Assembly (NCBI GenBank): GCA_947574255.1
Contig: CANPJT010000006.1
Location: forward strand, 1-43,145
Source of the DNA: an uncultured Mycoplasmatota bacterium
GTDB taxonomy: Bacteria > Bacillota_I > Bacilli_A > RF39 > UBA660
Direction of reading: 5' to 3'
DNA length: 43,145 nucleotides
Part shown: piece by piece, positions 1,804-38,544 of the stretch
Layout: every line of letters starts with the position of its first letter
Position numbering within the stretch: the stretch's first letter is position 1
Translations under genes and position numbers: made by a program
The notes under the pieces: model-generated
Seen by the model: only the letters and a program-made list of their open reading frames with translations
Told to the model about the DNA's origin: nothing
Database searches by the model: none

Positions 1804-3642
1804 TTATGCTACTTTTTTCTTTCTTACTAAAACTTTAGATTTATTAAAATACTTTTTTACAACTTTATCTTGCTTTAATAACTTTTCATATCTTTTTTGT
1901 AATTTTTTTTCTAAATTATCTATATAAATTAAAAACTCTTCATCCCTTTCTAATTCTGGATATTTTAATAGTGTTATTTTCTTTAACTCTTCAAAAGTAG
2001 TAATATTCTTCTCCATTATTACAATTGCTTCATTTAAAGCATCATTACCTCTTTTTATATATGATAAATCAATAGTTTTTTCAGCACTAATAGTTCCAAA
2101 TAAAATATTCTTTATAAAACCAAATGTTCGAAAAACAAATAAACCAGAAACAAACTTCCTAAAAAAACTATTTTTAATAAAAGGAAAACTTAAAAATAAG
2201 GGCACTTCCAGACTTTTTATAGATTTTCTTAAAGCTTCTTTTATCAATAATTTTTCCATATTTTTAATTTCTTGCTCGGATTTATTTTGCATACTTTGAA
2301 TTAAAATTTCTTTTTGCTTTAATTCAGCGTCTTCTTCTAATGTTTTAAACTTCAAAGTAATCTTTTCTAGCTCTTCAGGAGTAATTGACTCTTCTAAAGA
2401 TATTCGTAAAGCTTCTAGATCTTTCTCTTTATATAAAAAAACTTTTTCTTTTATAGTTTTTAATCGTTTCAATTCTGATAATACTTTATTCTTTTCTTCT
2501 TCTTTTAACTTTTTTAACAATAAACTTTCTAAACTACTTATTCTTTCATTTAATAAACTTTCTACAAAATCATATTCCTTTTCCATAAAGTCTTCTTTAG
2601 ATATTTCTTGTTCTGCCTTTTCAATAACTTGATCATTTTCTTTTTTTATCTTTGAAAAACCTATTACAATTACAGAAAGTTTTTCTTCCTTTTTATCAAC
2701 TTTTTTTAATTCCTCTGGATTTATTTTTTTCTTATTTTCAAAATTATCTTTCATTTGATTATTAATTTCTTTTAGTTCTTTTTCTTCCCCATCTTTCTCC
2801 ACTACCTCTTCTTTATTTAATTGTATATTTGAAATAAATATCTCATCTAATAAATCGGTTTCTTTATCTTCTATTACTTCTTTGATAACTTCTTGTGATT
2901 TTACATCTTCTCCTGTTTTTGGTAAATCAAAAACAGGAAAAATAATTCTTTCTTCGCTTTTATTATCTTTTTTTAAATAACTAGGTTTTATCTCTACTAA
3001 ATCCTTTCTCTCCTTAAAAATCTTTTCATCAAAAATATCATCAGCTTTTTTTACTTCAATAAATTCTTTCTCCTTAGGTAATTCAGTTACTAAAACATTT
3101 AATTTTTGCTTATCATTTTGCTCCTTTTTAGCACCAGATGATAAAATCACTTTTTTTTCTTCTATTTTAAATTCTTTTAGTTTAAAAATGTTTTCAACTT
3201 CACTATTTTTTTCTTCAACATCCTTTTTTACATTTGTCTTTATAAACATATTCAATGCTTCTATAGATTTAATTCTGTTTTTATTTTTTTCTACTTTAAC
3301 AATCATCTTTTTAGTATATTTTTTTAAACTAACTTTTTCTTCATTAGGTAAATCTTTTATTTTTAATTTAAACATTTTTTCTAGTACTTTATTTAATTCA
3401 TTTTCAATATTTTCTTTTGTAATAATTTTTTTATTAAGACTTATATATTCTTTAAATAAGTTCCTCGTTCCATCACCCGTAGAACTTGTACTATTCTCAT
3501 CATATTCTTTCTTTATTAGTTCCTTTGAATTATAAAAATTATCCCTTTTATCTTCCTTTTGTATCTCTCTTTTTGTTGAATTAAACAATAATTTTAAAAT
3601 ACTACTTATAAAATCAATTATTAACTGTAAAACATGTTTCAT
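1804..3642 (-). CDS. Lys/Glu-rich coiled-coil protein of unknown function
   Basis: This 612-residue protein is dominated by Lys, Glu, Ile and Leu. The start chosen is ATG at 3642 because GGTGAT sits 4 bases upstream; an in-frame TTG at 3654 would overlap that site. The first 25 residues form a hydrophobic/amphipathic helix (LQLIIDFISSILKLLF), followed by a long charged, probably disordered and coiled-coil region. A more structured C-terminal part (about residues 470-612) has a hydrophobic block rich in Phe (FLSFPFIKNSFFRKF) and then an ordered-looking helical tail. I recognise no domain. It sits between pgsA and recA, where cinA is found in many Bacilli, but shows no CinA features. Membrane attachment through either hydrophobic block is inference. 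Confidence 0.75.
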   Translation of the reverse strand: MKHVLQLIIDFISSILKLLFNSTKREIQKEDKRDNFYNSKELIKKEYDENSTSSTGDGTRNLFKEYISLNKKIITKENIENELNKVLEKMFKLKIKDLPNEEKVSLKKYTKKMIVKVEKNKNRIKSIEALNMFIKTNVKKDVEEKNSEVENIFKLKEFKIEEKKVILSSGAKKEQNDKQKLNVLVTELPKEKEFIEVKKADDIFDEKIFKERKDLVEIKPSYLKKDNKSEERIIFPVFDLPKTGEDVKSQEVIKEVIEDKETDLLDEIFISNIQLNKEEVVEKDGEEKELKEINNQMKDNFENKKKINPEELKKVDKKEEKLSVIVIGFSKIKKENDQVIEKAEQEISKEDFMEKEYDFVESLLNERISSLESLLLKKLKEEEKNKVLSELKRLKTIKEKVFLYKEKDLEALRISLEESITPEELEKITLKFKTLEEDAELKQKEILIQSMQNKSEQEIKNMEKLLIKEALRKSIKSLEVPLFLSFPFIKNSFFRKFVSGLFVFRTFGFIKNILFGTISAEKTIDLSYIKRGNDALNEAIVIMEKNITTFEELKKITLLKYPELERDEEFLIYIDNLEKKLQKRYEKLLKQDKVVKKYFNKSKVLVRKKKVA

Positions 3643-3680
3643 TAGTATCACCAAACTTAAATCTATTTTACCACAAATAA

Positions 3681-27730: not shown

Positions 27731-30085
27731 TTATAAACCGAATACAGATAAAATAGCAGAAAAGAAACTTTTTTCTTTTATTGAAAATTTAATACTAGAT
27801 TCATTTCCCGCTCTGTCAACAACTACGATATTGTAAGTACCATTATCTTTAAGAGATAAATCATATTTATTTTTATCGTTATCATATTTATTATATTCTT
27901 TTATTACTTCTTCATGCCCATCATCAAATACTCTCTTAATAATATGTAAATCATTATCAGTAATAGTTAAATTAACACTATCATAAACACCTTCACTTAT
28001 AATTTCTGATGTTCCATTTCCAATTTTTCCTTGTCCAATTATTTTAGGATTTATATTATCATATATCATTTTAGCTTGTTCTATAATATTATTATTCTTA
28101 TCATAAAGAGTAAATGTATACATCGTATTATCACTTACAGTATAAGTATTTTGTTCGGTTCTATCAGTTTCTTTAGTTTGCCAATTATATACTGTCATAT
28201 AAGCATAATTAGGATTTTTAATTATAATATTACTTGTGTTAAATGACGCACCATTTACAAAATCAAAACTAGCCGCTAAAACCACTTTAACTTGTCTATA
28301 AATTGAATGATTAATATTATTATTATTTAAATTCACTCCAATATTACCTGCTTCATCCGCATAATCCTTTACAACTACTTGAATTTCTCCTTCATCTGTA
28401 TCTGTTACAATATATTTTGCTACATAAACAAAATCATTATCAGTAGAATGCTCATTATCCAAATAACTATCAAATTCTTTTCCATTAATTATTATTTTAG
28501 GATTTACAGCTAATCTTTCATTAAAAGTAATAAATACTGTGACTTCATCTAAAGCTTTAGCTACACTAACATCTTTTTCTGTTCCAAAATTACTTAAATT
28601 AAGAATACCAAAATTTTTATATACTGGAACTTCCTTATCTATATTAGTTACCTTTGCAATTATTTTTTCTTTATTTCCAGCTAAATCTTCAATTTCAAAT
28701 ACAAATTCTCCATTATCCATAAAAACATATTCATTGCTTCCATTATTATTTAGTATTTTTATTGTTTCACTAGCCTTTTCAAGTTTTGCCACTACAAAAC
28801 CATTAGTTAAAGCTTTTGTACTATATGTAATAATTGCCGTTGGCTTAATTGTATCTATTGTAAATGTTATTGTTTCTGATACATTTCCCGCTTTATCTTC
28901 CACATATACTTTATATATTCCATCTTCTTTTATTGTATCTCCTATTTTATAGTTATCTACTTTTATCCCATCTTTTTCTAAATATACTTCTACCTCTTCA
29001 TTACTGTTGATAACTACTTCTTTATTATAATATGCATTATTTTCTATTCCTATTATAATTGGATTTTTCATATCTATTGTAAATATAATAGAAGTTTCAT
29101 TAAATGCCTTATCAATTACTTTCAATTCATAAATTCCATCTTCATTAATATTTTCAAGTTCACTTTTTGAAACAATTTGTCCATTTAAAATTATACTAAC
29201 TTCATTTATATCATTTATAGCTATAGAAACAACTTTATTAGTTATATCACCATTATTTATGCCTGTTATTACTGGTGCATCCGTATCATCTAAAACTTCT
29301 GATAATTTTTTTAAAATATCAACCAATTCATCTTTTCTAGTACTATCTGATAAACTATTTACCTTATTAATAATTTTTTCATTATTTCTAAAATTTCTTG
29401 CATCATCCATATCATTTTTATTAGTCGCATTATTAACTTTATTAGCTAATTGTTCAACTAAATACGATATATCTATAATTTCTTGAATACTATCAAGTAT
29501 ATTTTGTAATTCATTTTTTTTATTCTCATCTAAAACATTATCTACTAATCTTTGAGCTTCGTCTACATCAATTTGTTTTAATGAATCACGAGCCTTTTCT
29601 ACTGCTGCTAAAGCTAATTCATAAGAATTATCTACTGATGGTTTATTATTGCTTTCATTATCATTTGGATTATTAGAATTATCTTCACCTGAACCATTAT
29701 TATTAGTTGAATTATTTCCATCTACATTACCCTGATTATCTTGTGAATTATTAGTTCCAATATTCCCTACACTAACTCCCGCACCATTAGAAATATATCT
29801 TCTATTTGTAATACTCGTAGAATTATTTTGATTGCTATTTATAACAGTATCTGTATTATTATCTTCGATATCATTTAAAGAATTATTTATATTATCATTA
29901 TTTTCATTATAATTATAATCTTCATCTGAATCATTAGTTGTTTGAGAAGAATCTCCATTTCTCATATTTCCTGTACCACTAATATCTTCTTCACTTGGAT
30001 TGGCAAAAACAAATGATCCTGTCCCTAAAAGTAGCAACAATACTATTACTATTATTAAGTTCCTTTTCTTATTCATACTCTCCAC
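27731..30085 (-). CDS. Large secreted surface protein with Ig-like repeats
   Basis: The 784 residues (GTG 30085; an ATG three codons later is equally possible) begin with a signal peptide (NKKRNLIIVIVLLLLLGTGSFVFA, cleavage near 29). Residues 30-150 are very rich in Asn, Ser, Asp and Gly and probably disordered. A helical segment follows at 155-265. Tandem bacterial Ig-like modules start near 270, 340 and 412, each with a proline-led strand (DAPVITGI, NPIIIGIEN, KPTAIITYS) and an AGN turn, with further beta modules after that. No LPXTG motif or sorting tail; the C-terminus is SFFSAILSVFGL, possibly weakly membrane-associated. Adhesion or matrix function is inferred. It has its own promoter. 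Confidence 0.88.
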   Translation of the reverse strand: MESMNKKRNLIIVIVLLLLLGTGSFVFANPSEEDISGTGNMRNGDSSQTTNDSDEDYNYNENNDNINNSLNDIEDNNTDTVINSNQNNSTSITNRRYISNGAGVSVGNIGTNNSQDNQGNVDGNNSTNNNGSGEDNSNNPNDNESNNKPSVDNSYELALAAVEKARDSLKQIDVDEAQRLVDNVLDENKKNELQNILDSIQEIIDISYLVEQLANKVNNATNKNDMDDARNFRNNEKIINKVNSLSDSTRKDELVDILKKLSEVLDDTDAPVITGINNGDITNKVVSIAINDINEVSIILNGQIVSKSELENINEDGIYELKVIDKAFNETSIIFTIDMKNPIIIGIENNAYYNKEVVINSNEEVEVYLEKDGIKVDNYKIGDTIKEDGIYKVYVEDKAGNVSETITFTIDTIKPTAIITYSTKALTNGFVVAKLEKASETIKILNNNGSNEYVFMDNGEFVFEIEDLAGNKEKIIAKVTNIDKEVPVYKNFGILNLSNFGTEKDVSVAKALDEVTVFITFNERLAVNPKIIINGKEFDSYLDNEHSTDNDFVYVAKYIVTDTDEGEIQVVVKDYADEAGNIGVNLNNNNINHSIYRQVKVVLAASFDFVNGASFNTSNIIIKNPNYAYMTVYNWQTKETDRTEQNTYTVSDNTMYTFTLYDKNNNIIEQAKMIYDNINPKIIGQGKIGNGTSEIISEGVYDSVNLTITDNDLHIIKRVFDDGHEEVIKEYNKYDNDKNKYDLSLKDNGTYNIVVVDRAGNESSIKFSIKEKSFFSAILSVFGL

Positions 30086-30104
30086 ATACCTTCCTATTAT
30101 ATTA

Positions 30105-30134
30105 ATAATACACTTAAGTTGATTTAGCTGTCAA
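30105..30134 (-). promoter_or_regulatory. Promoter of the Ig-like surface protein
   Basis: TTGACA (30129-30134) and TATTAT (30105-30110) are separated by 18 bases, with a TG just before the -10. The -35 forms part of an arm (30123-30134) that is repeated inverted, 11 of 12 bases, at 30175-30186. Confidence 0.72.
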
Positions 30135-30270
30135 TAAAAATTTACTAAATTTAAATATTTTTAAACTTTATATCTTGACAGCCAAAAACACTTATTTTAC
30201 AGAGAAAAAAACAATATATATTATTAAATAATGTTAAATTAAATAACAAGACACGTCTAAAAATGTAAAC

Positions 30271-30304
30271 AAAAAAACTTACAATTTATTTTATGTAAGT
30301 TTTT
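30271..30304 (-). terminator. Terminator of the signal peptidase operon
   Basis: AAAAACTTAC (30273-30282) and GTAAGTTTTT (30295-30304) form a 10-bp stem. The T tract continues on the minus strand. The rest of 30135-30270 holds the inverted-repeat arm and AT-rich DNA. Confidence 0.8.
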
Positions 30305-30320
30305 ATAATATTTTCATAAT

Positions 30321-30848
30321 TTATAAAAATTTAATCCTATTTAAAGGCCAAAAACGAAACGAAATCTTTCCTATAACGTCCTCTTTTTTAATTAAACCAA
30401 TTTCTCGACTATCTAGAGAATCTACTCTATTATCACCTAAAACTAAATACATATCATCAGGTATCTTATCATATTTTAAATCTCTTAAAGTAAAATCTTT
30501 ATATATTAAATCATCTGAAATGTAAGATTCCTTATATTCCTCATCATTTATATACAAAGTACTATCTTTAATATAAATATTTTCTCCAGGTAATCCAATC
30601 ACTCTTTTAATTAAATATTTAGTATCAGCATACTTTAAAGATATAATATCTCCTCTTTTAATTTCTTTAAAACGATACTTAAATTTATTTAAAATTAATA
30701 TCTCCTCATCACGTAAAGTAGGATACATTGAGCTTCCAACTACTTTTGTAACAGAAAATACATATTGTATTAAAAATAATATTACTACAATAGCAATAAT
30801 AACTTTTATAGCATCTTTTAAAAACTCTTTAATTTCTAGCCAATCCAT
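30321..30848 (-). CDS. lepB: Signal peptidase I
   Basis: A membrane serine protease that removes signal peptides from exported proteins. The 175 residues have one N-terminal membrane helix (IKVIIAIVVILFLIQYVF), the catalytic Ser in GSSMYPT (S40), the general-base Lys in YLIKRVIG (K81), and GDNRVDSLDSRE. Because it has the Ser-Lys dyad it is a P-type enzyme, not the Ser-His SipW type. It lies 19 bases downstream of a protein with a SipW-class signal sequence and may process it, although this pairing with a P-type peptidase is unusual. GGGG precedes the start. Confidence 0.92.
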   Translation of the reverse strand: MDWLEIKEFLKDAIKVIIAIVVILFLIQYVFSVTKVVGSSMYPTLRDEEILILNKFKYRFKEIKRGDIISLKYADTKYLIKRVIGLPGENIYIKDSTLYINDEEYKESYISDDLIYKDFTLRDLKYDKIPDDMYLVLGDNRVDSLDSREIGLIKKEDVIGKISFRFWPLNRIKFL

Positions 30849-30867
30849 TTTTAATTCCCCAATTCAA

Positions 30868-31551
30868 CTATTTTGTTGCTCGATCTGTTGTTTGCTCTGC
30901 AGTTACTCTTACTGATAGTTTAACTTTTGATTGATCATTATAACCAAATTCATCTTCATTAATCACTGCAGAACTACCCTTTTCTGTATCTTTCTTATCT
31001 TCATCATCACTTTTATAAAAATCCCACTTCCAACTAATTGTATGATATATATCAGTTGGTCTAGTTGCTGGAAATACATCATCAATACTATAAAGACTTT
31101 CAATACACCAAGCAAGTTCATTAATATCATCAGTAGGACACATTCCATCTAAATTATAAGTTATTCTTCCCACAGTATCAGTTTTTTCTAAAACTTTTAA
31201 TTTTATCCTATAATTGGTTTCTGGAGTTCCTGAAATAGTAAACTTATACTCTCCTGATGTACCAGGTGCAATAACATTATCACAAACTTCCTGTGCATTT
31301 CCTTCTTCATCATCTATACTTTTACATCCTAATGACTTAACATAATAATCTTTTTCTCCATTTTCATTTACTACAAAATACGAATCTCTAAATAAATCTA
31401 CATCTTTTGTTATATCTATATCCCAGAGTGCAACACGTGCTTCATCAGACAAGTCAATACTAGAAATATATTTAGCAAAAGTCCGACTAACCGAAAATGA
31501 TGTCATAACTGTTGCCAGTATTATTAAAAAAACTAAAACTTTCTTTTTCAT
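30868..31551 (-). CDS. TasA/camelysin-like secreted protein with SipW-type signal peptide
   Basis: ATG 31551 (AAGGTGGG upstream) gives 227 residues. The N-terminus MKKKVLVFLIILATVMTSFSVSRTFAKYIS matches the SipW-dependent signal class, where cleavage falls before a conserved Lys-Tyr, and is followed by ARVALWDIDI as in TasA-like proteins. Two Cys pairs (GCKS/VCDN and MCPT/WCIE) could form disulfides. TasA-type proteins build biofilm fibres, and related camelysins are cell-surface metalloproteases; neither activity can be assigned. It shares an operon with the signal peptidase and is driven by its own promoter. Confidence 0.75.
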   Translation of the reverse strand: MKKKVLVFLIILATVMTSFSVSRTFAKYISSIDLSDEARVALWDIDITKDVDLFRDSYFVVNENGEKDYYVKSLGCKSIDDEEGNAQEVCDNVIAPGTSGEYKFTISGTPETNYRIKLKVLEKTDTVGRITYNLDGMCPTDDINELAWCIESLYSIDDVFPATRPTDIYHTISWKWDFYKSDDEDKKDTEKGSSAVINEDEFGYNDQSKVKLSVRVTAEQTTDRATK

Positions 31552-31608
31552 ACCATCCCACCTTATTAAGTTTTTAAATATCAAGAAGCTTTAATAACTT
31601 CATAGAAT

Positions 31609-31657: not shown

Positions 31658-31734
31658 TGGCGTCCTTGGACAGATTCGAACTGTCGGCTTTCTGCTTAGG
31701 AGGCAGATACTCTATCCAACTGAGTTACAAGGAC
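31658..31734 (-). tRNA. tRNA-Arg (anticodon CCT)
   Basis: A complete 77-base cloverleaf. The acceptor strands GTCCTTG (31728-31734) and CAAGGAC (31662-31668) pair, with discriminator G and encoded CCA (31658-31660). The anticodon stem TCTGC/GCAGA closes the loop CTCCTAA, so the anticodon is CCT and it reads AGG. The T loop is TTCGAAT. A T-rich tract follows at once. Confidence 0.95.
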
Positions 31735-31836: not shown

Positions 31837-32064
31837 TCATTTACTTTTCATCTGATTTTTTATAAAAAATTTTGCCTTTTTTAAATTATTTATTATTAAA
31901 TTTATATTATCTTCTTCTACAATATCATTATCTATTTTTAAAGTTTCATTTAAAACATTTTTTATATTTCGTAATTCTTCTTTTAAATTATCTATATCAT
32001 TTATAATATTCATTAATTCTGCATTTAATTGTCTATACTTTTGCTCAAGTTCTAAATTTTCCAT
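31837..32064 (-). CDS. Small coiled-coil protein, last gene of the type VII operon
   Basis: The 75 residues are nearly all helical, with a heptad-like middle (LMNIINDIDNLKEELRNIKNVLNETL) and a basic end. It overlaps the preceding gene by 20 bases and has AGGAG inside that gene, so translation is coupled. By position and size it resembles the small helical accessory proteins of type VIIb substrate operons, but no family is recognised. Confidence 0.65.
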   Translation of the reverse strand: MENLELEQKYRQLNAELMNIINDIDNLKEELRNIKNVLNETLKIDNDIVEEDNINLIINNLKKAKFFIKNQMKSK

Positions 32065-32353
32065 TTGTTTCTCCTAATTTTTCTAAAGACGCTGCTACCA
32101 TTTCAGAAGTATTCTGATAGCCTTTTAAGACTTCATTTAATTTATTTATATTAATGTCATAATTTTTGTTAATAATATTAAATTTTTTCTCTAATTTAAA
32201 ATTAATATTTTCTAAATTAATAGTATTATTTGTATTATAATTACTTTTAATTTTTCTTAATTGTTCATTTAATTCATTAAAAACTCTATTTTCTTCTGTT
32301 ACAAACATTTTTAACTTTTTTAAAAGATTATTAACTTCCACACTATTAATCAT
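32045..32353 (-). CDS. Small helical protein of WXG100 size, without the W-x-G turn
   Basis: A Lys/Asn/Glu-rich protein of 102 residues. Two predicted helices are separated by an Asn/Thr stretch (NYNTNNTINLENI), the overall shape of a WXG100 hairpin, but there is no Trp. It shares one base with the stop of the upstream gene (TAATG). It may be a heterodimer partner or chaperone for the larger WXG-like proteins of the operon, as in LXG operons with DUF3130/DUF3958 proteins. That role is inference. Confidence 0.65.
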   Translation of the reverse strand: MINSVEVNNLLKKLKMFVTEENRVFNELNEQLRKIKSNYNTNNTINLENINFKLEKKFNIINKNYDININKLNEVLKGYQNTSEMVAASLEKLGETNGKFRT

Positions 32354-32898
32354 TACAAATCATCCTCTTTTAAAATATTAATATCAATATTATCTATTTT
32401 TCTATACACTTTTTTTTCTATCTCTTCAATAATCTCCATGCTATTTTTAATTTTATATTTTATATTTTTACTTATTAAATTGCTTTCTTTCAAAATTTGC
32501 TCAGCATTATAAAAATTTTCTTTACTTTGACAAAAACTAACATCAATTTGATTAATTTTATTATTTATTCTTTCTAAAATATTTAAACAATAATCAAACT
32601 TATCTAAAACTTTATCTTTATAATCCAGATTAAATTCTAACTTTTCTCCAAAAGTTTCATAATTTTCAATTATAAACTTATAAATATTATATATTGAAAT
32701 AAGTTCTTGATAATTAGCTATTATTTTATTTTTATTTTCAGCAATATCATCAAAAAATACTTTTGAATTACCATCAATCCAATAATTTGTTAATTCATTA
32801 AAAATAGTATAAATATTTTGATAATTATTTTCATAATCAGAAATTAGTTTTTCTAGTATTTGTGCCTCTAATTTTAAATTTGCTACATTCACTTTCAT
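32353..32898 (-). CDS. WXG100-like helical protein with W-x-x-G turn
   Basis: ATG 32898 is set by AAGGATG upstream, giving 181 residues. Residues 1-80 have a WXG100-like pattern, with a Trp at the hairpin turn in NYW40-I-D-G43-NSKVFFDDI and helices on each side. The remainder is a long helical region rich in Lys, Ile, Asn and Glu with one Cys pair spaced along it. Candidate type VII substrate or partner. It starts just after a perfect 20-bp palindrome that separates it from the upstream WXG-like gene. Confidence 0.7.
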   Translation of the reverse strand: MKVNVANLKLEAQILEKLISDYENNYQNIYTIFNELTNYWIDGNSKVFFDDIAENKNKIIANYQELISIYNIYKFIIENYETFGEKLEFNLDYKDKVLDKFDYCLNILERINNKINQIDVSFCQSKENFYNAEQILKESNLISKNIKYKIKNSMEIIEEIEKKVYRKIDNIDINILKEDDL

Positions 32899-32922
32899 TA
32901 AAATCATCCTTAACAATAAAAC

Positions 32923-32942
32923 ACATGGTTTATAAACCATGT
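32923..32942 (-). terminator. Intra-operon hairpin (20-bp perfect palindrome)
   Basis: ACATGGTTTATAAACCATGT can form an 8-bp stem around TATA in RNA. It sits 13 bases after the stop of the 210-residue WXG-like gene and is followed by GTTTTATTGTT on the minus strand. The T tract is imperfect, suggesting partial termination or 3'-end protection rather than a full stop. Confidence 0.55.
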
Positions 32943-32954
32943 ATTTTTAAATTT

Positions 32955-33587
32955 CTATTTTGCTGTAAAAGCTGATGCAACTTTAGAAGCAGTATCTTTG
33001 TGTGCTTCTGTAGTATTAGAAATCGCTTTAGAAACAGTATTTGTTAATTCAGTAATTGCTTTATTTGCTTGATTTTTTATATTAGTTAATGATTGTAATA
33101 AATTCTCTTGCTGTCCACTACCAACAAATCCACAATTTCTAACTGCATTTTCTGCACTTGTCAAAGCATTATCAGAAGCCGAAGCTATTTCACTTAAAGC
33201 ATTAGTAGCAACAGTTCCTGCATCATCCATTGCTCCACTAACACCATTAATATTTTCTTGTATACTTGATACATCTACACTACGAGAAGCTCCTTTAAAA
33301 CCAATCTTAGAATAATCAACACCTGTTCTTTCGGCCCAAGCAACAGCTGCTGAATCCATAACATCTACAACATTTTGAAAAGTAGAATATGAATCAGTTA
33401 ATAACTTATTAGCTACACTATTAAACTCTGCAAAAAATTTTTGAGCAATTGGTGATGCCCATCTAGTAGATAATTCTCCAATAAATTTAGATTGCATATT
33501 ATCTGCTAAAGGAATCATTAAAGCTTCATAAGCATTATTAACAGCATTAATTGATACTCTAACCTCATCATCATTAAATCCATTCAT
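32955..33587 (-). CDS. WXG100-like type VII secretion substrate candidate, double length
   Basis: The 210 residues are strongly helical and rich in Ala, Ser, Asn and Val, unlike the Lys/Ile-rich neighbours. Residues 1-95 look like a WXG100 domain with the turn at TRW43-A-S-PIAQKFFAEF, i.e. W-x-S instead of W-x-G. Residues 110-210 may be a second helical hairpin around GFVGSGQQ (about 152-159). The C-terminus EAHKDTASKVASAF has aromatic/acidic spacing loosely like the YxxxD/E export signal, but with His. GAAGG precedes the start, and the 67-base gap upstream may hold a promoter (TTTACA-17-TATCTT). Likely the abundant secreted protein of the locus. Confidence 0.75.
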   Translation of the reverse strand: MNGFNDDEVRVSINAVNNAYEALMIPLADNMQSKFIGELSTRWASPIAQKFFAEFNSVANKLLTDSYSTFQNVVDVMDSAAVAWAERTGVDYSKIGFKGASRSVDVSSIQENINGVSGAMDDAGTVATNALSEIASASDNALTSAENAVRNCGFVGSGQQENLLQSLTNIKNQANKAITELTNTVSKAISNTTEAHKDTASKVASAFTAK

Positions 33588-33654
33588 TTATATACCTTCT
33601 TTCTATAATAAGATAACATATGATTTTATTAATGTAAATAATATTAACATTATT

Positions 33655-33918
33655 TTACAGTTTTCTTAAAAATAATAATTCGCTACCATTCCTGATATTT
33701 GTGTTAATAATTATATCATTATTAACATAAACTTCACAAGTATCTTTATTTAAAAGCAAATAATCAATATTTTGATTTAAACTAATATTAGTTAAATCAG
33801 AAATAGACTTTATAAATAACCTTTTAATTTTCCAAACTAATTCATTAACTGGAATATATACATCAAAGCTTTTATCCAATTCTGGAATAATTAATTTAAT
33901 CATTACTTTATTTTCCAT
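33655..33918 (-). CDS. YukD/EsaB-like ubiquitin-fold protein
   Basis: ATG 33918 has GGTGATGATA upstream and gives 87 residues; it overlaps the end of essC by 11 bases. The pattern MIKLIIPELDKSFDVYIPVNELVWKIKRLFIK...NGSELLFLRKL fits the small ubiquitin-like YukD/EsaB proteins that accompany EssC in type VIIb systems, where they act as cytosolic regulators. The match rests on size, beta-alpha-beta pattern and context. Confidence 0.8.
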   Translation of the reverse strand: MENKVMIKLIIPELDKSFDVYIPVNELVWKIKRLFIKSISDLTNISLNQNIDYLLLNKDTCEVYVNNDIIINTNIRNGSELLFLRKL

Positions 33919-36900
33919 TATCATCACCATCTTTACTAACAAAATCAATTAATTTAACTAATGAGGCAAGTCCTTCATTAACGACCCAACCCATATTATT
34001 TTTATAGTCATAAGTCATTTCTCGATTGACATTAGATAATCTAAATACATTTTGATCAGAAAGACCTCTACCAATCCAAATACCTTCATTATTATTAAAT
34101 ATTTGTGTAAACCAAGACTCAAATGAATATTTCTTCATTTTTAATGCTGCATCTACAGCAATTATACTAACTTTTTCATATTTTTTAACTAAATTTATAA
34201 AATCTGTAATAGTTGTACTATCAATTGCATCTACAAATTTAGCCATAGAATAAATCATAATAACAACATTAATATCTCTTTTTTCCTCTATTAATTTATT
34301 TAAATAATTTGATAGATTTTCAAGATATTGTTTTATATTAGTTTGAACATAATTGGGATATTCCTTTTTATGTAACAAAAGTTCACTAACTGGATCTATT
34401 ACAATTAAATTTGTGTTAGGCATTCTTCTTAATTCAAAAATTAAACTTAATATAAAATTCTTTGTATTTTCTAATTTATTAGAAGTAATAATATTTCCTA
34501 TATTGGCTAAATAATCCACCAGAACTACTTCAAGTTCTTTTTTATCTATTCCTACAGGAACACTATTTAAATTATTAATCTTTTCTCTTATCAGACTGTA
34601 ATCAACTATTTCTGGTAAAACTGGAACTTTATTAGCACTATATTTATTTTTATTAATTTGTTCATTAACAAAATTTAGAATAAAGTCATTTAGTTTATTT
34701 TCATCTTCAATTATTGAAGCCGTTTGAAACTCATGGATACCATCATTAAGCAATAATCCTCTTCCTAAATCTTCACGAGGCATTATTTTAGTTCTTGTTC
34801 CAAAAATCGTCCCATAATCACTTATATCTTTTAATTTAAAAGCATAAAAATTATGACATAACTGCGTAATTTTGCTATTTATTGAATTAATACCATTTCC
34901 CGTAATAATAAATATTATTCCATAACGTTCAGAATCCCTAACAACTTCTGGCAATTCATCATAAATATTTTGATGGGAATCATAAACAGATGAATAATTA
35001 TTAATAATAATAACTTTCAAGGGAATTTTTGTATCATTATTCTTAATATAATTTTTATAATCTCCACCATAATTTGAAAATAATTTTTTTCTTTTTACAA
35101 TTTCTTCTTTAATTAATTTAATTAGATTATTAAACTCTTCTTCCTCTGATGCAAATACAACGCCACCAACATGAGGTAGATTTTCAAATTTCCGAAACGA
35201 TTCAGAACCATAATCAATAATATAAAAATTTATCTCACTAGCCGAAAAATTTTTACAAGAAGAATAAACTAATGTATTAAGAAACATTTCCATTTCTGCT
35301 CCATTATTCCCATAGATAACTGTATTACCATCCTCTAAATAATTATAAATAACGGCCCCTTGCTCTTGTTTTTCTGGAGCATCATATTCTCCTAATAATA
35401 CTTTTATATCATATGGATTATATTCTATTTGATATTTTTCATTTAAATCATCAACAACAATTATTGATGGAATATTATCAAGCCATAATTTTCTAGCTTT
35501 CTTATTATCTATTTTGGCTGTTTCAACAATAAAATTTAAAACAGCAGCTAATTGTTCTCCTTGAGGTGCAACTTTTATTACTTTAGAGCCTTGAACATTT
35601 TTAATAAAATATCCAATATTATTAATAAAATTAACACTCTTATCAACTTGTTTTATTATTTCATTATATGGATAATATTTTGCACCACACCATGCTGATT
35701 GCCCTAAAGCAAAATACTCATCATATCCAACTTGTAAATAAAATCTACCAGTTTGCTTTATACTAGCAGCTTCTGGTCTTTTTAACATTTCACGACTATC
35801 AGAAACATCTTGAACTTTTAAACAAACTCTAAACTTAGTATTAGACCATATTTGATCATTAACTACCCCACTTGGCTTTTGAGTCGCTAAAATTAAATGT
35901 ATACCTAAACTTCGGCCAATTCTCGCTACACTAATTAAATTATCCATAAATTCTGGTTGTTGACTTTTTAATTCTGCAAACTCATCAGAAATAATAAATA
36001 AATGTGGTAAGGGCTCATTTAATTTTCCATTTTTATAAAAACTTTGATATTTATAAATATCAATTGTACTTTCTCCTAATTTATCACGAGCTTCATTAAA
36101 CATTTGTTGTCTTCTTTTTACCTCACTATCAATACTTACTAAAGTACGATTCATTTCAGCTTTATCTAAATTAGTAATCGTTCCTGCTAAATGTGGTAAA
36201 ACAACATTATTTGTTTTATTTTCAAAAGCCCCAGCAAGACCCCCCCCTTTATAATCAATTAAAATAAAAGCTACATCATCTGGACTATAATTTATCGCCA
36301 TTGACAAAATATAAGTAATAATAAACTCTGATTTCCCACTTCCTGTCATACCTGCAATTAAACCATGTGGACCATGAAATTTTTCATGTAAATCTAAATA
36401 CATCAAACTTCCTGTATCATCAACACCAACTTCTGCTTTTAAACTACTTGTTGAATCATTCATATTCCAACGATTTAATATATTTAATTGTTCTACTTTA
36501 CCAACATTTTCCATTTCCAAAAAAGAAAGAGCATTGGGTAAATTTCGAGTATCATTTTCAAATTCAATTGGAACATTAGATAAAACTTTTGCTAAATCCA
36601 TCATATTTATATTATACTTAATTTCCGTTTTAAAAACTGATTTTTCTTGTTTTTCAAAAGAATTTTTTAAAATAACTGATTTATCTCCATCTAACATAAT
36701 AAAATTATTACATTTACTTGGTAATTTACTTAATTTATTTTCTATTATAATAAACGAGAAACCTAAATCATTTTCTATCTCTGTTATTTCTTTTATAAAT
36801 TCAAAACCTTTAACTACATCGAATCCGTCAATAATAATAAGATAATGTGGTTTTAATTCACTATTTTTATCGCTATCTACTTGACTTTTTCTTATATTCA

Positions 36901-38464
36901 TTTCTAAATTTAAATAATTAGTAACATTTTTAGCGTCTTCAAAATTAGTAGAAAAAAAACGAAAAGACTTATTATCATTTAAAGAATGATTTAAATATTT
37001 CATAAAATCCCAATGTTTTTCGTGTTTGAAATTTGTAAATAAAACTAATTTTAATTCTTCATAATTATAAAAAGTAGTTAATTGTAAAATAATATTATTA
37101 ACAAAATTTAACGAATCATTTTCTCCACCCATTATAGCAGTAATTTTGCTTTTATAAAATGAATAACCAACTGGAACATTGTCTATATATTGATAACGTT
37201 CTGATAATTCGTCAGCTTTTTTTCTTAATTCATCTTCATCAATTGAAAAATCCTCTTCCGAATATGATAATTTTAATTTTAATTTTTCTCTACCTACACC
37301 AATTCTAGCTACTAAAAAATCATTTTGATCAATTCTTTTAGCCCAGAAATTAATATTTTTTCGCTTTATAATATCTACACATGTATCATTAGTAATCAAG
37401 TTTTCATATAAAATAACTGCTTGTTCATTAGCTATTACTTTTAGCTCTTTTTCTTTTTCTAATAAATAATTATTATATTTATCTTCCAATTCCTTTCTTT
37501 TTTTCTTTTTCATATATTTATTATAAATTTGAGTTACTAAAGGAAATATCAACATCGAAATAAGCATAACTCCACTTATAATTAATTGAGAATAAGAGCT
37601 TTGTAAAGTGGTTTCTCCTGAATTAATTTTTAAAATAATATTTGTAAAAGAAACAATAGAAGAAACTCCCATTGCAAGCATTGGTCCAATCACCAAAATT
37701 AAAGGCATTTCTCCACTATTACTATCTTTTGGTGGTGGACTTAACTTTATTTCTTTCTCTTCAATAGTCCTTTGAATTCTGGGGGTTTTAGAAAAATAAT
37801 CATCTTTTTTATATAAATCAATATCTTTTACTTCAATATCTTGTGAAGAAATATCCCCTTTAAATAAATATCTAACAATATTAGAAGAATTAGTATCAAT
37901 TGTAACCATTTTTTCATTATTAGAAATAAATAAATATTTTTCTAAAAATAACATTTTTATTCCATATAACTCAACTTCATCACCACAGTTTATTATTTGA
38001 GTTTTATTTTTTACAACAAATCCATTTACATACACAATTGTATTATCATCTTTTTCTAAAAATAAATTATTATCATTAAATTTTATTTTAGCTAACATAT
38101 TTTTCAAATGAAAATTATTAACTTTTATATTAGCATTTTCCATTCCAATAAGTAAATTAATATTTGAATTATACGTATAAGGAACAATGCTATTGTGTTC
38201 TATATCGTTAATAAAAATCAAATAATTCTTTTTATCTTTATTTAATACATAAAAGGTATTAGGAGTCAAATTAACGAAAGCAACTGGAGAAGAATTAAAA
38301 ATAATTCCAACATCAGCTGTAGAATACAAACACCATTCTCCATTTCTTGCCTCAACATTGATTAAAGTATTTCCATCAACATCTCCAAATGTATAACTAC
38401 CTATCTTTTCTGTTGGTAACTGAAATTTTAAAACTTTATCACTTAAATACAATGTTATTATCAC
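33908..38464 (-). CDS. essC: Type VIIb secretion ATPase EssC
   Basis: EssC is the membrane motor that recognises and moves WXG100 substrates. GTG 38464 (GGGG 8 bases upstream) gives 1518 residues. Two N-terminal FHA-like modules (to about 190) are followed by two membrane helices (about 255-277 and 291-317). A non-canonical ATPase-like domain lies near 400-620. The first FtsK/SpoIIIE domain has a full Walker A GMTGSGKS (705-712) and Walker B LFIISDE. Module 2 has YGNNGAEM (about 1051-1058) where GxxGxGKS is expected, and module 3 has ITSNKLENT, so both lack the P-loop Lys. It starts the operon and overlaps the YukD-like gene. Confidence 0.95.
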   Translation of the reverse strand: MIITLYLSDKVLKFQLPTEKIGSYTFGDVDGNTLINVEARNGEWCLYSTADVGIIFNSSPVAFVNLTPNTFYVLNKDKKNYLIFINDIEHNSIVPYTYNSNINLLIGMENANIKVNNFHLKNMLAKIKFNDNNLFLEKDDNTIVYVNGFVVKNKTQIINCGDEVELYGIKMLFLEKYLFISNNEKMVTIDTNSSNIVRYLFKGDISSQDIEVKDIDLYKKDDYFSKTPRIQRTIEEKEIKLSPPPKDSNSGEMPLILVIGPMLAMGVSSIVSFTNIILKINSGETTLQSSYSQLIISGVMLISMLIFPLVTQIYNKYMKKKKRKELEDKYNNYLLEKEKELKVIANEQAVILYENLITNDTCVDIIKRKNINFWAKRIDQNDFLVARIGVGREKLKLKLSYSEEDFSIDEDELRKKADELSERYQYIDNVPVGYSFYKSKITAIMGGENDSLNFVNNIILQLTTFYNYEELKLVLFTNFKHEKHWDFMKYLNHSLNDNKSFRFFSTNFEDAKNVTNYLNLEMNIRKSQVDSDKNSELKPHYLIIIDGFDVVKGFEFIKEITEIENDLGFSFIIIENKLSKLPSKCNNFIMLDGDKSVILKNSFEKQEKSVFKTEIKYNINMMDLAKVLSNVPIEFENDTRNLPNALSFLEMENVGKVEQLNILNRWNMNDSTSSLKAEVGVDDTGSLMYLDLHEKFHGPHGLIAGMTGSGKSEFIITYILSMAINYSPDDVAFILIDYKGGGLAGAFENKTNNVVLPHLAGTITNLDKAEMNRTLVSIDSEVKRRQQMFNEARDKLGESTIDIYKYQSFYKNGKLNEPLPHLFIISDEFAELKSQQPEFMDNLISVARIGRSLGIHLILATQKPSGVVNDQIWSNTKFRVCLKVQDVSDSREMLKRPEAASIKQTGRFYLQVGYDEYFALGQSAWCGAKYYPYNEIIKQVDKSVNFINNIGYFIKNVQGSKVIKVAPQGEQLAAVLNFIVETAKIDNKKARKLWLDNIPSIIVVDDLNEKYQIEYNPYDIKVLLGEYDAPEKQEQGAVIYNYLEDGNTVIYGNNGAEMEMFLNTLVYSSCKNFSASEINFYIIDYGSESFRKFENLPHVGGVVFASEEEEFNNLIKLIKEEIVKRKKLFSNYGGDYKNYIKNNDTKIPLKVIIINNYSSVYDSHQNIYDELPEVVRDSERYGIIFIITGNGINSINSKITQLCHNFYAFKLKDISDYGTIFGTRTKIMPREDLGRGLLLNDGIHEFQTASIIEDENKLNDFILNFVNEQINKNKYSANKVPVLPEIVDYSLIREKINNLNSVPVGIDKKELEVVLVDYLANIGNIITSNKLENTKNFILSLIFELRRMPNTNLIVIDPVSELLLHKKEYPNYVQTNIKQYLENLSNYLNKLIEEKRDINVVIMIYSMAKFVDAIDSTTITDFINLVKKYEKVSIIAVDAALKMKKYSFESWFTQIFNNNEGIWIGRGLSDQNVFRLSNVNREMTYDYKNNMGWVVNEGLASLVKLIDFVSKDGDDNGK

Positions 38465-38498
38465 TTTATTCACCCCATTTTAATTACCAAGTATCCTT

Positions 38499-38520
38499 TA
38501 TGATAATAAATTATATCATA
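38499..38520 (-). promoter_or_regulatory. essC promoter region with inverted repeat over the -10
   Basis: TATAAT (complement of 38510-38515) lies within the inverted repeat TATGATA (38499-38505) / TATCATA (38514-38520). Symmetry over the -10 is suggestive of an operator. The -35 position holds only TTTAAA within the terminator of the previous gene. Confidence 0.45.
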
Positions 38521-38544
38521 AAAAAAAACAGTTTTAAACTGTTT
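38521..38544 (-). terminator. Terminator of the DUF362 operon
   Basis: AAACAGTT and AACTGTTT (within 38526-38544) form a short stem with a run of eight T on the minus strand (38521-38528). It isolates essC from the genes upstream. Confidence 0.75.

Follow-up and report, generated by a model that had tools for sequence, protein, structure and literature searches.

Gene content and boundaries of the locus

The window, i.e., the whole stretch of 43,145 nucleotides that was analysed, carries on its minus strand, from 38464 to 31837, essC, an EsaB-like gene and four genes encoding small helical proteins, most of which lie close together or overlap. The features of the locus and its flanks are:

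33908..38464, minus strand: EssC/TsxC motor ATPase, 1518 aa from the GTG at 38464
33655..33918, minus strand: EsaB/YukD/TsxB-like ubiquitin-fold protein; start set by relatives, start codon overlapping the end of essC
32955..33587, minus strand: P8, 210 aa, tandem helical-hairpin WXG100-like protein (AF2 model and hhalign)
32353..32898, minus strand: P7, ~181 aa, WXG100-like N-terminal half and helical C-terminal half (hhalign; conserved family)
32045..32353, minus strand: P9, 102 aa, helical, likely a WXG100-like partner (Lap-like; hhalign; position kept in relatives)
31837..32064, minus strand: P22, 75 aa, helical, likely a small partner protein; overlaps P9 (alignment of nine syntenic members)
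38510..38538, minus strand: promoter-like site, extended TG and TATAAT (10/12 match), overlapping the hairpin in part
about 38526..38544, minus strand: hairpin AAACAG-TTTAAAA-CTGTTT followed by a T-run, read from the sequence
31658..31734, minus strand: tRNA-Arg (CCT), found by ARAGORN; downstream boundary, outside the system

The mechanical open reading frame of essC spans 33908-38473 on the minus strand (1521 aa), and the start used by its relatives corresponds to the GTG at 38464, the coordinate given in the earlier note. The start of P7 was likewise taken from relatives, its mechanical frame reaching 32940. The hairpin, absent from the list of a terminator scanner that requires three G-C pairs, is likely the terminator of the DUF362 gene and the upstream boundary of the EssC operon. 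Promoter-like sites such as the one at 38510..38538 arise at chance frequency in this AT-rich DNA.

An earlier note on this DNA had described an operon of essC, a YukD/EsaB-like gene and four helical proteins, set between a terminator and a tRNA-Arg, and it proved accurate on these points: the ATPase matched TIGR03928, the EsaB-like protein matched the EsaB profile, the helical ORFs are conserved in order, and a T-tailed hairpin and tRNA-Arg(CCT) lie upstream and downstream, respectively. The membrane partners EssB, EsaA and EssA, which it had reported as missing from the locus, were not found anywhere in the window, either at 31837-38464 or in the surroundings. Its proposal of a 612-residue membrane protein as a partner, presumably meaning the 616-aa ORF at 1804-3654, found no support, as this ORF lies 28 kb away, has no Pfam match and is tied to the locus by nothing.

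EsaA is a wall-spanning protein. A class A penicillin-binding protein is encoded in the window, which points to the probable presence of a wall; the absence of EsaA is therefore not explained simply by there being no wall to span. Past the tRNA, the region 27731-31584 encodes a 238-aa exported protein that resembles, by eye, SipW-processed surface proteins. It also contains genes for a Pfam S26 type I signal peptidase and for a surface protein of 784 aa that carries a signal at its N-terminus.

The EssC motor and the small proteins

EssC scored 947.6 bits against the NCBIfam model TIGR03928 (T7_EssCb_Firm; cut-off 778.4, E=1.1e-284), and its best matches are EssC proteins, not FtsK, which was seen separately as 740-aa matches below the cut-off. 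The protein consists of two FHA-like domains (about residues 1-200), two TM helices (about 255-320) and the ATPase domains D1 and D2. The AF2 model of the N-terminus (pLDDT 82.8) likewise shows two TM-length helices after the FHA pair, and the closest structures found by Foldseek were the FHA domains of S. aureus EssC (5fwh/1wv3) and B. subtilis YukB (9qks), with E<=3.5e-7. An N-terminal FHA pair is a trait of T7SSb EssC.

The Walker A motif of D1 is intact in the window EssC (GMTGSGKS) and in all sequences examined, and that of D2 is degenerate (GNNGAEME). Within family f1, to which the source genome belongs, the D2 motif is lost in 34 of 37 EssC proteins and intact in three (one of them from locus L046); it is intact in all seven EssC proteins from EssB-bearing loci.

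As a single sequence, the EsaB-like protein had no Pfam match; the profile of its family, compared with that of annotated EsaB/YukD proteins, gave a probability of 91.8% (E=7.2e-7). The AF2 model of P8 (pLDDT 88.9) contains helices at 6-40, 46-88, 123-150 and 159-209, which form two helical hairpins in one chain, with an invariant W43 in the first turn, where distant members carry WVG. In hhalign comparisons with the WXG100 profile of the family, the first hairpin of P8 (residues 1-87) reached 88.6%, P7, which has an invariant W in its N-terminal half, 96.1% (E=3.6e-9) and P9 88.5%; P22 did not match (12%) and acts as a negative control for helical bias. Single-sequence Pfam/NCBIfam searches with the small proteins returned nothing useful, profile searches of the PDB yielded chance matches for EsaB, P8 and P7, apart from a weak ESAT-6 match for P8, and Foldseek with the P8 model found generic helical bundles without a specific match. 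The profile comparisons indicate that P7, P8 and P9 are a divergent form of WXG100, which single-sequence Pfam searches miss. The general traits of type VII secretion, an FtsK-like EssC motor, WXG100-type proteins and EsaB/YukD, are all present at the locus.

Related genomes, EssC phylogeny and cargo

A gene missing from a single incomplete genome says little, and the source genome (838 kb, 39 contigs) is 74% complete; 146 genomes of the same order, all belonging to family f1, were therefore searched. EssC exceeded the cut-off in 67 of them, i.e., in the source genome and 66 relatives, of which nearly all reach a completeness of 90% or more. None of these 67 genomes contained EssB over the Pfam cut-off or EsaA over its cut-off. 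Our own EssB profile, made from six EssB sequences of this class, reached 450-468 bits with two of these six but gave nothing convincing in the 67 genomes (best E=0.001 over 38 positions). The few sub-threshold EsaA matches were YhgE/Pip proteins, which the YhgE/Pip models fit better and which lie on other contigs. The EssA profile PF10661 returned TM noise, and it misses EssA in canonical loci too. As a control, the five canonical loci of this class (four other genomes of the class sample with EssC over the cut-off, and G346 just under it) all have EssB next to EssC; where no contig end cuts the locus, EsaA-like genes, small EssA-like genes with 2 TM helices, or both are seen as well. Since the same EssB profile finds EssB beside EssC in all five, the absence of EssB and EsaA is a family-wide state and not an assembly gap. 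EssB or EsaA genes elsewhere in the same genome, which by the earlier note would have refuted its reading, were detected by profile searches neither there nor in the 66 EssC-bearing relatives. Another locus of the sample, L148 (G168, a complete 2.5-Mb genome), carries EssA-like, EsaB and EssB genes followed by a 69-aa stub for EssC and a transposase-like ORF, and is apparently a T7SSb broken by an insertion.

In the EssC tree, the f1 sequences form one clade, which is grouped with the EssB-less systems of family f19 of the same class (96-99% SH-aLRT), and T7SSb EssC stands apart, with 24-27% identity to f1. A grouping of f1 with T7SSb to the exclusion of f19 was rejected (AU p = 1.7e-6). The tree contains long branches and support from quick searches; its reference sequences, used in place of the published TsxC of T7SSc-T7SSj, are plasmid-borne. 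Because the f1 clade is separate and its union with T7SSb is rejected, the phylogeny indicates that the window system is not a decayed T7SSb; with respect to the root, EssB may have been lost or may never have been present.

The genes around 105 EssC loci of family f1 were clustered. In 87 loci EsaB is found no more than 5 kb from EssC, and in 73 of 100 it is the gene directly downstream; in the remaining 18 of the 105, affected by contig ends or divergence, no gene of the EsaB cluster occurs within 5 kb. The next commonest neighbours were WXG100 clusters, DUF4176, the P7 and P8 families and large cargo. The comparison of locus composition in relatives, which the earlier note had suggested, showed that the order EssC-EsaB-P8-P7-P9-P22 is conserved, recurring in gut MAGs that carry the name Bacilli, Tenericutes or Mycoplasmatota bacterium. 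The most frequent TM-protein family near EssC occurs in only 8 of the 105 loci, all in one syntenic block, and no small 2-TM gene recurs beside EssC in this set. There is therefore no dedicated membrane partner linked to EssC. The source genome contains a second EssC-EsaB locus (L045:7312-13750, contig C8 of G000), with an upstream gene for a 236-aa protein with a WSG motif and with a gene for a HerA-like (DUF87) ATPase; a HerA-like gene is found within 5 kb of EssC in 8 of the 105 loci.

In relatives, the conserved block is usually followed by a large protein with a variable C-terminal part, ending in a transglutaminase core, an ADP-ribosyltransferase or, by eye, a cysteine-peptidase-like domain, and DUF4176 genes are present at their loci. 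No cargo-module protein was found in the 74% of the source genome that is available, and none is linked to the window locus. WXG100 genes are present in 40 of 67 EssC-positive and 4 of 79 EssC-negative genomes (p = 2e-13) and the cargo module in 20 of 67 and 1 of 79, respectively, figures inflated by close kinship within genera. Given the co-occurrence of WXG100 genes with EssC, the EssC systems of family f1 look maintained and functional. In the disordered N-terminus (residues about 30-70) of 11 of 21 cargo proteins, compared with 9% of other 100-aa stretches, a motif E-x-[VIML]-[DN]-[LVIFM] was recognised post hoc (loci L098, L097, L112, L160, L165, L166, L168, L178 and L109); it is a candidate export signal replacing LXG.

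Interpretation and comparison with known systems

The most probable explanation, offered with some reservation, is a reduced form of type VII secretion at this locus, with only EssC, EsaB and helical proteins of the WXG100 superfamily as dedicated linked parts. The minimal or divergent type VII system proposed in the earlier note is supported by the lack of EssB and EsaA profile matches in the source genome and its EssC-positive relatives, an absence that is not unprecedented (PMC11217815). EssC would be anchored in the membrane through its pair of TM helices, multimerise and alone form the membrane passage. EsaB may dock near D1, and ATP hydrolysis is expected at the D1 site only, so that D1 alone would power export. 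P8, as a one-chain double hairpin, would stand in for the EsxA/TsxA dimer, and P7, P9 and P22 may be Lap-like co-export partners that bundle with large cargo proteins lacking an LXG domain of their own; in relatives the cargo has variable enzymatic ends, as antibacterial polymorphic toxins do. We infer secretion, the multimerisation of EssC, the role of each helical protein and the dispensability of another membrane partner. In T7SSb, the FHA pair of EssC binds EssB; here the cytoplasmic pair could be structural or bound to an unlinked partner, and its retention suggests that some partner still binds there.

To our knowledge, the channel-forming part of type VII systems has yet to be told apart from the accessory ones. 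A family that keeps motor, EsaB and WXG partners, with none of EssB, EsaA and EssA linked to them, offers a natural minimal set to reconstitute. It is possible, though we propose it tentatively, that EssC, EsaB and WXG100-type partners suffice as a translocon across the membrane. They would then form a minimal type VII core in which a single ATPase domain works in each chain, a double hairpin in one polypeptide stands in for the EsxA dimer, and the cargo is recognised by a short N-terminal motif instead of LXG. The findings also suggest a possible contact or export weapon in uncultured gut bacteria with genomes of about 1 Mb, a group for which we know of no secretion biology.

The alternative that membrane partners exist but are encoded elsewhere and too diverged to recognise, for instance a kinase-like or envelope protein binding the FHA domains of EssC, as TsxD or TsxJ may in other subtypes, is rather unlikely but has to be weighed, as profile searches would miss a membrane protein that evolves fast or is encoded away from the locus. 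The FHA domains are kept, and some relatives (L179 type) retain the SxxH and KFGTYVN residues; however, the window FHA domains are, by eye, without the usual phosphothreonine-binding residues. Related f19 loci carry a DUF6382-FHA protein upstream of EssC, and parts vary among the published subtypes, T7SSd being without EsaB (PMC11217815), but no TM family recurs near EssC in f1, and elsewhere in the class, in other families, EssB is readily picked up by profiles.

It is improbable that the system belongs among the published T7SSc-T7SSj, with a reduced T7SSe/f/j type as the likeliest choice, instead of being a new subtype. The f1 EssC groups with f19, with which it shares the EssC-EsaB order, and two f19 systems carry the DUF6382-FHA architecture that characterises TsxJ in T7SSe, T7SSf and T7SSj (PMC11217815). 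Against this, f1 loci show no recurrent gene for any of the T7SSc-T7SSj parts D, F, G, H, I, J, K, L, M, N and V, a DUF6382-FHA gene is not recurrent near EssC in the 105 loci, and the 2024 study drew on RefSeq sequences (PMC11217815), whereas the f1 loci come from uncultured gut MAGs.

There is very little to commend an EssC that is not a secretion motor but, e.g., a DNA translocase or part of a relic locus: the degenerate D2 motif and the lack of linked cargo in the window would fit, but EssC is open over its full length with an intact D1, resembles EssC and not the separate FtsK, co-occurs with WXG100 genes and has syntenic cargo and DUF4176 genes in relatives. Least tenable is a canonical T7SSb that lacks EssB, EsaA and EssA through an incomplete genome or recent strain loss, since, despite the 74% completeness of the source genome, both the assembly-gap and the strain-specific-loss readings are refuted by the absence of EssB and EsaA in the 66 relatives, almost all of them 90% complete or more, and EssC lies phylogenetically outside T7SSb in a locus that is complete on both sides.

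The reduced type VII system preferred here shares with T7SSb (EsxA-EsaA-EssA-EsaB-EssB-EssC; Staphylococcus, Bacillus and the Limosilactobacillus plasmid pSNU175-4) the FHA-FHA-2TM-ATPases architecture of EssC, EsaB, WXG100-type helical partners and variable toxin-like cargo. It differs in having no EssB or EsaA and no EssA at the locus, in the position of EsaB downstream of EssC, in the loss of the D2 Walker A motif and in its separate EssC clade. Likewise, the LXG toxins of T7SSb and their Lap partners are encoded as cargo with small helical proteins, two to four in number, alongside, and DUF4176 occurs in family f1 too, but cargo of the window subtype has, as recognised post hoc, a disordered N-terminus with a short motif and no LXG domain.

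The systems T7SSc-T7SSj share TsxA, TsxB and TsxC without EssA, EssB and EsaA (Garrett, Higginson and Palmer 2024, PMC11217815), and the absence of these three is therefore already known. The window system resembles them in this core and in small WXG100-related partners beside cargo, but the further components of their cores, among them a kinase, a phosphatase, an FHA protein, an Ig-like envelope protein, an EspG-like chaperone and a beta-propeller, are not recurrent in f1 loci. T7SSc, T7SSg and T7SSh have an EssC without FHA domains, whereas the FHA fold is present in the window EssC. T7SSg (Acetivibrio, Paenibacillus) is nearest in bareness, with two WXG100 proteins, an EsaB-like protein, an ATPase and one propeller protein; however, TsgC is without FHA domains and lies beside Tad pilus genes, neither of which is true of the window system. 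An FHA-less EssC beside a separate FHA protein and EsaB, with no EssB annotated within 8 kb, was also observed on an Agathobacter rectalis plasmid (L229), which is another reduced arrangement.

Sister to f1 in the tree are the f19 systems (L149-L154), which have no EssB and carry EssC followed by EsaB. Two of them (L149 and L152, EssC-EsaB-WXG100) have the DUF6382-FHA protein upstream of EssC, and L150, L151 and L153 a ~700-aa lipoprotein-like gene in which a Big_2 domain was found in L150. No relevant paper pairing RF39 with type VII secretion was found in the open-licence literature, and no system in Garrett 2024 (PMC11217815) combines an FHA-bearing ATPase, EsaB and WXG proteins without a further conserved component. 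Compared by published part lists, the predicted gene content of the window system matches none of T7SSc-T7SSj, and among the type VII machines seen so far it seems to be the barest, related to the reduced versions described in 2024.
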